Origin: Acidobacteriota bacterium
Lineage (GTDB): Bacteria; Acidobacteriota; UBA6911; RPQK01; JAJDTT01
Reading direction: 5' to 3'
Assembly (NCBI GenBank): GCA_022827025.1
Contig: JAJDTT010000054.1
Span: 1-46,874 of the forward strand
Length of the DNA stretch: 46,874 bases
Shown one piece after another: positions 3,127-36,807 of this stretch. Under the pieces are notes generated by a model. It searched no databases, was not told where the DNA came from, and saw only the letters and a list, made by a program, of their open reading frames with translations. Within the stretch, counting starts at the first letter, position 1, and each line of letters opens with the position of its first letter. The translations under genes and the position numbers were made by a program.

Positions 3127-3140
3127 AAGGGGACAGTCAC
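3127..3140 (+). repeat. GGGGACAGTC dispersed motif
   Basis: The 14-mer AAGGGGACAGTCAC lies in non-coding DNA. The same core, or its complement GACTGTCCC, also occurs in the intergenic sites at 2908-2918, 6579-6600, 14318-14333 and 17869-17890. Motifs of this kind are known around REP-associated tyrosine transposase (RAYT/IS200-like) loci, but no such gene is in this window. Confidence 0.5.
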
Positions 3141-3252
3141 TGATGGCAACTGTATTCCGGGCGTTTCGGCAGGACTTGGCGCGCATGTATCATCGAGTCG
3201 TACCCAGGAGACCCTGGTGGGACACCTGCCCGGACCTGAAAGAGGAGATATC

Positions 3253-34299: not shown

Positions 34300-35769
34300 T
34301 CAATCACTCCCGAACCAGCGGGAGCTGACCACCTTCTGCTCGGTGTAGAAATTCACTCCGTCCCGGCCATGGGCATGCAGGTCGCCGAAAAAGGAACCTC
34401 TCCATCCGGAGAAGGAGAAAAAGGCCAGGGGCACGGGAACGCCCACGTTGATTCCCACCATCCCCACCTGAACCCGGTTCTGGTACTCCCGGGCCGCCCA
34501 CCCGCTCTCGGTGAATATGGCGGTTCCGTTGCCGAACCGGTTGGCGTTGACCACCTCGATCGCCTCATCCAGGTCCTCCGCCTGGATGACGCAGAGAACG
34601 GGTCCGAAGATCTCGTCCTGGTAGATCTTCATCTTCGGCGAGACCCCGTCGAAGATGCTGGGACCCAGAAAATACCCGGACAGGTCGTCCACTCCACTGT
34701 GACAGCGGCCGTCCAGAGCGAGCCGGGCTCCTTCATCCAGCCCCGTCTCAATGTATTCCAGCACCCGCTCCCGGTGAGGACCGGAGATCAACGGGCCCAG
34801 GTCGCTACCGCCGTCTGCGGCTGCACCCAACTGCAACGCTTCCGCGCGGTCCTTGACCTTCTCCATCAGAGGTTCGTGAACCTCTCCCACCGTCACCACC
34901 GCGCTGATGGCCATGCACCGTTCTCCCGCAGATCCGAACGCGGAACCGATGATGGCGTCGGCCGTCTTGTCCAGGTTGCAGTCCGGCATGGCCACCAGGT
35001 GATTCTTGGCGCCGGCCAAGGCCTGAACCCGCTTTCCGGCCATGCTGGCCGCCTCGTAGACATAACGGGCCACGGGGGCCGAACCGACGAAGGAAACGGC
35101 GCGGACGGACACGTTCTCCACCAACGCCTCCACCGCTTCCCGGTCCCCCTGGACGACGTTGAAGACGCCGGGCGGAAGTCCCGCCTCCGCAAACAACTCC
35201 GCCAGGCGCAGCGCGGCGCCGGGCACCTTCTCGGACGGCTTCAGGACGAACGCGTTGCCGCAGGCGATGGCGACGGGATAGAGCCACATGGGCACCATGG
35301 CGGGAAAGTTGAAGGGGGTGATACCGGCACACACGCCGAGCGGCTGCCGGAAACTGGCGCAATCCAGACCCCGGGAGACGTTTTCCACCGTCGAACCCTG
35401 GATCAGGGTGGACATGCCGCAGGCGAACTCCACCACCTCGATGCCTCGCCGAACCGACCCCTGCGCTTCCTCCGGGATCTTCCCGTTCTCCCGCGAGATC
35501 CAATCGGCCAACTCCTCCAGGTTTTCTTCCAGGAGCTGCTTGTACCGGAACAGGATCCGGCAGCGCTCCACCACGGGTGTGTCGCGCCAGCCGGGAAACG
35601 CGGCGGCGGACGAAGCGACCACTTCGTCGACTTCCGCCCTGGTCGCAAAGGGGACATGGGCCAGGAGATCTCCGGTCCCCGGGTTTCGCAACTCTCCGTA
35701 GCGAGGCGAGTTCGAGGGCGCCCGAACCCCATCCACGAAGGAATCGACTCGAGGAACACTAAGCTGCAT
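34300..35769 (-). CDS. mmsA: Methylmalonate-semialdehyde dehydrogenase (CoA-acylating)
   Basis: This 489-residue aldehyde dehydrogenase converts methylmalonate semialdehyde (from valine, thymine or inositol breakdown) to propionyl-CoA, or malonate semialdehyde to acetyl-CoA. Typical subfamily motifs are ITPFNFPAMVPMWLYPVAIA, NAFVLKPSEKVPGAA, GAKNH and GSAGERCMAIS with the catalytic Cys at about 285. The C-terminal end FSFSGWRGSFFGDLHAHGRD followed by FYTEQKVV distinguishes it from other aldehyde dehydrogenases. The normal Lys of the KDG segment is Arg here (GRDG). The ribosome-binding site is modest. It shares an 87-bp divergent promoter region with the Fur-rubrerythrin gene; no other valine or inositol genes are near. 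Confidence 0.92.
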   Translation of the reverse strand: MQLSVPRVDSFVDGVRAPSNSPRYGELRNPGTGDLLAHVPFATRAEVDEVVASSAAAFPGWRDTPVVERCRILFRYKQLLEENLEELADWISRENGKIPEEAQGSVRRGIEVVEFACGMSTLIQGSTVENVSRGLDCASFRQPLGVCAGITPFNFPAMVPMWLYPVAIACGNAFVLKPSEKVPGAALRLAELFAEAGLPPGVFNVVQGDREAVEALVENVSVRAVSFVGSAPVARYVYEAASMAGKRVQALAGAKNHLVAMPDCNLDKTADAIIGSAFGSAGERCMAISAVVTVGEVHEPLMEKVKDRAEALQLGAAADGGSDLGPLISGPHRERVLEYIETGLDEGARLALDGRCHSGVDDLSGYFLGPSIFDGVSPKMKIYQDEIFGPVLCVIQAEDLDEAIEVVNANRFGNGTAIFTESGWAAREYQNRVQVGMVGINVGVPVPLAFFSFSGWRGSFFGDLHAHGRDGVNFYTEQKVVSSRWFGSD

Positions 35770-35816
35770 CTTTCACACCTGTATCAATGGAGTATTGGCG
35801 ACGGTCCGAATGAAAC

Positions 35817-35845
35817 TTGAAAACGAGTGCCGGATTTCCGAGAAT
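35817..35845 (+). promoter_or_regulatory. Candidate sigma70 promoter of the Fur-rubrerythrin gene
   Basis: TTGAAA (35817-35822, 5/6 match to the -35 consensus) is followed by a 17-nt spacer and GAGAAT (35840-35845, a weak -10). The predicted start of transcription falls at about 35852, inside the palindrome at the start codon. If right, a start at ATG 35857 would be nearly leaderless and ATG 35887 would have a 35-nt leader. Confidence 0.35.
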
Positions 35846-35858
35846 GAGTTCCACTCAT
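35844..35858. promoter_or_regulatory. Palindrome over the Fur-rubrerythrin start, candidate operator
   Basis: ATGAGT-TCC-ACTCAT is a perfect 6-bp inverted repeat with a 3-nt centre. It overlaps the candidate -10 box, the predicted transcription start and the first ATG (35857). Fur-family proteins often bind such short palindromes in their own promoters, so autoregulation is plausible, but the sequence is not a classical Fur box. Confidence 0.35.
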
Positions 35859-36807
35859 GAGAGCCGTCAGAGAAACTTCGGAAGAGATGGAGATCTTCTC
35901 CAAATACCTGAAAGAACGGGGTCTACGCATGACCCACCAACGCCGGAAGGTGGTGCAGAGCTTCCTCCAGACCAGCGGCCACGTGAGCATAGATGAGCTT
36001 CATGAACTGGTCAAGGAGAGCGATCGGCGAATCGGCGCGGCGACGGTCTTCCGCACGCTCAAGGCCCTGACCGACTGCGGGTTGGCCCGTGAAGTGGACC
36101 TGCACGACGGGCGGACCCGCTTCGAGCCCCAGTACAAGCGGCCCCATCACCACCACATGGTCTGCATCAAATGCCAAAGCACCATCGAGTTCCTGAGTCC
36201 CGAACTGGAGCAGGTCCAATCCCGCATCGTGTCCAACTATGGCTTCAATCCGGTCGAGCAGCAGGTGCAGATCTACGGAATCTGTGAAGATTGCCAGAAC
36301 CGGATCGAGACCCACCCGGAACCGGTGAGTTCCGATCGGGTCTTTGCCCGGGATGCCTTGAAGATCGCCATAGCAACGGAAAAGCGGGGCGTCAACTTCT
36401 ACAGCACCGCTTCCGAATTGGTGACCCATGACTCGACCAAGTCCACGTTTCTCAGAATGCTGGAGGACGAGGAAGGTCATCTGAAGCAGCTTCAGACGCA
36501 ATGGGATCGTCTGGTCGCCGATGATGAGCGGGTGCTGAACGCACCGGTCTTCCTGGATTTCGACTTCGATTCCCTGAAACAGATCTTCCCCGGCAAGGAC
36601 CAGATCAAGGCCCGGCTCAAGGAAAATCTGACTGCGGCCGAGGCCTTGCAGATCGCCATGAAGATGGAGAAGGACGCGTACGACTTCTTCCACGACTATG
36701 CCGAAAAGTTCGAGGACACCCAGGGCAAGGAGATCTTCCTGAAGTTCGCCGAAGAGGAGTGGGAACACTTTACCGAGATCCGGAAGGAACTCGACGCCCT
36801 GTCCTGA
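35857..36807 (+). CDS. Fur-family regulator fused to a rubrerythrin-like diiron domain
   Basis: This 316-residue two-domain protein combines two parts. Residues of about 10-150 are a complete Fur/PerR-type repressor: winged helix (LKERGLRMTHQRRKVVQSFL, ATVFRTLKALTDCGLA), the His cluster HHHHMVCIKC and structural-zinc CxxC pairs (CIKC and CEDC). Residues of about 160-316 are a four-helix ferritin-like domain with two half-sites: EKRGVNFY with MLEDEEGHLKQL, and EKDAYDFFHDYAEKF with FAEEEWEHFTEI, the Glu and ExxH ligands of a diiron centre. No rubredoxin domain is present. The likely job is metal- or peroxide-dependent repression coupled to iron oxidation or peroxide reduction; this is inferred. 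ATG 35887 (with GGAAGAG) is an alternative start that matches typical Fur N-termini better. Confidence 0.9.
   Translation: MRAVRETSEEMEIFSKYLKERGLRMTHQRRKVVQSFLQTSGHVSIDELHELVKESDRRIGAATVFRTLKALTDCGLAREVDLHDGRTRFEPQYKRPHHHHMVCIKCQSTIEFLSPELEQVQSRIVSNYGFNPVEQQVQIYGICEDCQNRIETHPEPVSSDRVFARDALKIAIATEKRGVNFYSTASELVTHDSTKSTFLRMLEDEEGHLKQLQTQWDRLVADDERVLNAPVFLDFDFDSLKQIFPGKDQIKARLKENLTAAEALQIAMKMEKDAYDFFHDYAEKFEDTQGKEIFLKFAEEEWEHFTEIRKELDALS

Follow-up and report, generated by a model that had tools for sequence, protein, structure and literature searches.

A complete Fur regulator and a C-terminal rubrerythrin/ferritin-like diiron domain are encoded by a single uninterrupted gene in the stretch of acidobacterial DNA analyzed here (46,874 nucleotides, referred to below as the window). 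The first-pass annotation, made from the window by itself, implied a singleton. This was wrong: the fusion belongs to an old, conserved family and is a new variant within the Fur family. Sensing of iron and of oxidative stress is normally divided among separate proteins, such as Fur, PerR and OxyR. In the fusion, an iron sensor shares one chain with a diiron site that could react with oxidants, and this in a phylum whose iron regulation has been little studied. There is roughly an even chance that the protein serves as the main iron-responsive Fur, with a rubredoxin-less diiron module that adds a second input from iron, O2 or peroxide. No description of the fusion was found in the titles and abstracts of the open-access literature searched, and entries for the architecture, without comment, may exist in public domain databases. 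Chimeras of rubrerythrin, for example the [FeFe] hydrogenase-rubrerythrin, likewise join a diiron module to another functional unit; however, they are reported to be enzymes, whereas the fusion is a predicted transcription regulator (PMC11926857).

Domain layout and distribution of the fusion

The fusion gene (35857-36807) lies on the forward strand, as do all of the features within it, and its limits are supported by the open frame and by orthologues. Translation runs without interruption from an ATG at 35857 to a TGA at 36805-36807, giving 316 codons. The FUR domain, comprising the winged helix and the dimerisation domain, occupies residues 20-140 (35914-36276) and matches its Pfam profile end to end (PF01475; positions 1-121 of 121; E 3.2e-31), with 108.4 bits against a curated cut-off of 23.1. 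The end of Fur and a short linker follow (residues 141-165; 36277-36351). In the orthologue alignment, this linker is conserved and closes with a conserved “FARDA” motif, which is the start of helix 1. The rubrerythrin/ferritin-like four-helix domain covers residues 166-310 (36352-36786); its match to PF02915 in the window protein (E 2.9e-9; 38 bits) is above the curated cut-off, and the same profile was detected in 17 of 17 family members. The initial description of a single 316-residue frame with both domains is thus borne out by Pfam scores over the cut-offs.

Could the frame be an assembly chimera, or a read-through of two neighboring genes? Genes for Fur/PerR and for rubrerythrin can adjoin. 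For example, at locus L172 of genome G012, which also carries the fusion, a stand-alone Fur-family gene is followed by a same-strand frame that reads like rubrerythrin. However, many assemblies made independently of one another have the same unbroken fusion, among them G151 and G326, whose genomes are each a single contig, and this rules out an artifact. The short, conserved linker between the domains also argues against it, leaving this explanation with a negligible probability. A stop or frameshift near codon 155, which the first-pass annotation had named as a finding that would refute the fusion, is not present in the window, and the frame is also intact in three congeneric genomes.

The three other genomes of the genus carry the fusion with 88-92% identity, and it is present in most of the order and class with 35-60% identity. 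A search for the same domain order elsewhere, suggested at the outset, found it at full length, with a match spanning both domains, in 67 of the 396 genomes sampled from the phylum, distributed over about 20 families. In two further genomes of this sample, the fusion is cut by a contig end or a run of N. Families with the fusion lie both inside and outside the class of the window; those fusions outside it that group together on the tree are referred to as the “second class,” a tree group with no implied taxonomic rank. On the Fur-domain tree, the fusions and the stand-alone Furs of the phylum form one well supported set, on which the fusion label requires three changes. A single origin with later losses is possible. 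Both domains are under purifying selection, the ferritin-like domain strongly so: in the window's genus, dN/dS is 0.12-0.13 for the ferritin-like part versus 0.23-0.28 for the Fur part.

Relatives of the C-terminal domain were also sought further afield. Among 398 genomes of the phylum of genome G402, reached via locus L014 (Pseudomonadales), none was recognized as fused to Fur; these relatives are mostly stand-alone proteins of about 150-234 aa, and they include one 326-aa frame with a stop (G597:C221). Searching 17 more genomes from other phyla for the domain gave zero matches, as did the PADLOC defence library, and a search for viral relatives found none. The match in a phage library spans only the Fur part, and plasmid records matched the Fur domain alone, with none covering 80% of the query.

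The Fur part and its candidate targets

Alignment places the regulatory metal ligands at H42 (35980), E90 (36124), H98 (36148), H100 (36154) and E111 (36187), within 35980-36189, and the structural zinc cysteines at C103, C106, C143 and C146, within 36163-36294. All of these residues are invariant in every fusion where they are readable. A complete Fur domain with an HHHH cluster and CxxC pairs had been claimed from the letters alone, and this is correct. The cluster is H97-H100, of which only H98 and H100 are conserved across the fusions, and the pairs are C103/C106 and C143/C146. Known Furs have the same complete domain (PF01475), two CxxC zinc pairs, regulatory site of three His and two Glu, and Fur-type glutamate; unlike the fusion, which adds a 160-residue diiron domain, they stop near residue 150. 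Structure prediction is consistent with this assignment, with pLDDT mostly 86-98 over residues 11-150. The Foldseek matches listed for the full-length model are all Fur-family chains, and the best PDB matches of the Fur part are Mur (5fd6) and Fur (6d57).

Is the regulator a Fur or a PerR? The five regulatory ligands were matched, in order, to PerR His37, Asp85, His91, His93 and Asp104 using a published site list, and the residue at the Asp104 position separates H2O2-insensitive Fur from PerR (PMC4866751). The equivalent residue is Glu111, a Fur-type residue, and on this ground a PerR identity was rejected. PerR has its family and its metal-site geometry in common with the fusion, but it owes its H2O2 reactivity to Asp104 (PMC4866751). 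Hence, only the first half of the original label “Fur/PerR” stands. Against NCBIfam, the Fur part receives generic Fur-like scores that are below all equivalog cut-offs, and far below those for PerR. The Fur part is predicted to be an iron-responsive regulator.

In its own genome, a MAG of 318 contigs, no intact FUR other than the fusion was found, and in genome G001 the fusion is the sole FUR match at E 1e-3. A second intact Fur could be missing from the 318-contig assembly. The genome does have a second Fur homologue, on contig C276 at 51313-51552 (L129, L221); it is without the N-terminal winged-helix start and seems to be a truncated copy or one disrupted by an insertion or misassembly.

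Which genes might the fusion regulate? The intergenic region upstream (35770-35856) also borders a methylmalonate-semialdehyde dehydrogenase gene that runs divergently on the reverse strand (34300-35769). No Fur box is visible there, and none occurs at up to three mismatches anywhere in the window, so autoregulation through a Fur box was rejected. The genome has just one perfect Fur box, TGATAATGATTATCA. It sits some 230 bases upstream of a gene for ferritin, together with two weaker sites, each within two mismatches. The box search places this candidate three-site cluster at 16130-16216 of contig C22 in the window's own genome, G000 (3131-3217 of locus L190). The cluster also precedes a gene on the opposite strand that encodes an ABC-transporter ATPase. 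Genomes G003 and G001 have three Fur-box-like sites in the same place, where a Markov model predicts 0.03-0.07 per region, with two mismatches in the best G001 site. The candidate cluster is conserved in the genus; ferritin genes in other genera showed no such cluster upstream. With no other intact FUR found in the genome, the fusion is, by elimination, the likely reader of these candidate boxes. Most lone matches with one or two mismatches outside the ferritin cluster have no iron-related neighbors and were taken as chance.

The second class differs in two respects. First, a scan of three second-class genomes found zero Fur boxes that were perfect or had one mismatch, and the Furs of this group may read other sites. 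Second, in 17 of 19 loci (L102-L105, L107, L109-L111, L113-L120 and L127) the gene directly upstream, in the same orientation, is erpA, which encodes an Fe-S cluster insertion protein; its identity was established on one representative. This adjacency ties the fusion to iron-sulfur metabolism in the second class. In the window's own class, no conserved operon was found, and the neighbors differ between orders.

The ferritin-like domain and its possible roles

The presence of both Glu/ExxH half-sites, noted from the letters at the start, is confirmed by alignment. Half-site 1 (36379-36480) pairs E175 (36379) with E205-xx-H208 (36469 and 36478), and half-site 2 (36667-36768) pairs E271 (36667) with E301-xx-H304 (36757 and 36766). 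The PDB relatives of the domain are 1vjx and 2fzf. Both half-sites align with the solved TM1526 (1vjx), with all six ligands matched, and also with designed diiron bundles. TM1526-type proteins have both half-sites, and their six ligands align to the family profile; unlike the fusion, they are stand-alone proteins of about 160 residues with no DNA-binding domain. Rubrerythrin itself shares the PF02915 ferritin-like fold family and the twice-repeated Glu/ExxH pair, but differs from the fusion in two ways. First, the fusion has no rubredoxin FeS4 domain, as had been correctly noted from the outset: its five cysteines are C74 and the four zinc ligands, and there are none after C146. Second, rubrerythrin has an extra helix-3 glutamate, E94 of the Desulfovibrio protein, expected here three residues before E271. 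That position is occupied by Met268, so, judged by position, the extra glutamate is absent. The first-pass term “rubrerythrin-like” is therefore accurate at the superfamily level only, the relatives being rubredoxin-less ferritin-like proteins such as TM1526. In the structure models, the helices of this part have low confidence (pLDDT about 36-82 in the full protein and a mean of 56 when folded alone) because many of the fusion orthologues were left out of the alignments used for prediction. Convergence of the six ligands on one diiron site is predicted from homology.

How might the two metal centers work together? In the proposed mechanism, the Fur part would hold structural zinc and, with Fe(II) in the H42/E90/H98/H100/E111 site, would bind Fur boxes as a repressor or an activator; the multi-box promoter region of the ferritin gene is the clearest candidate target. 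The diiron module would fill with iron and, unlike the Fur-type Glu111 site, would react with O2 or H2O2, and this reaction could alter the affinity or the oligomeric state of the dimer. Since the Fur site belongs to the type that is insensitive to peroxide, any response to oxidants would have to come from the diiron domain. The metal content, the DNA binding by the fusion and the coupling of the two centers are all predictions from sequence, and the self-resetting switch suggested in the first-pass annotation is likewise hypothetical. That the ferritin-like diiron center is a built-in sensor of O2, H2O2 or iron load, giving Fur a second redox input, is a tentative proposal with somewhat less than an even chance of being right. 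If true, it would represent a new class of sensor, widespread in one phylum.

There are two alternatives, both of them unlikely. One is that the diiron domain is a tethered enzyme or iron buffer, i.e., a peroxidase or ferroxidase that clears H2O2 or excess Fe(II) beside the DNA-bound regulator and so shields the iron site of Fur. The symmetric Glu/ExxH pairs are complete and strictly conserved, diiron-carboxylate proteins such as TM1526 are the nearest relatives with solved structures, and every other over-threshold Rubrerythrin match in the window's own genome is better explained as a ferritin, all of which would fit an enzyme. However, the protein has no rubredoxin domain and no cysteine after C146, and no reductase was seen beside the gene in the neighborhood survey. 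Regulators are also made in few copies, a poor fit for bulk turnover. The module resembles an added sensor more than a peroxidase, and a sensor is preferred because no electron donor is attached or was seen adjacent; a tethered enzyme seems rather improbable.

The other alternative, which is less probable again, gives the domain a chiefly structural role, in which its helical bundle would determine whether the protein is a dimer or a tetramer and its metal site would be ancestral and dispensable. Family f10 bears directly on this reading, because its genera g14 and g17 retain the domain and the Fur site despite the loss of one to five of the six diiron ligands. Against it, the six ligands are kept without exception in every fusion checked outside f10, even in far more diverged families at 32-37% identity, and within the window's genus the domain evolves under strong purifying selection. 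A sensory role may not be the whole story. Since f10 keeps the domain without the diiron site, a structural contribution alongside sensing is likely, and in that family the domain would appear to do something without the metal. These f10 fusions (loci L071, L072 and L074-L081), with decayed diiron ligands and intact Fur sites, are natural ligand-minus variants, and they allow a direct test of what the diiron site contributes to Fur. Locus L077 is an example of the loss, with A175, Q208 and G271, and in a third f10 genus, g16, the diiron ligands are intact.
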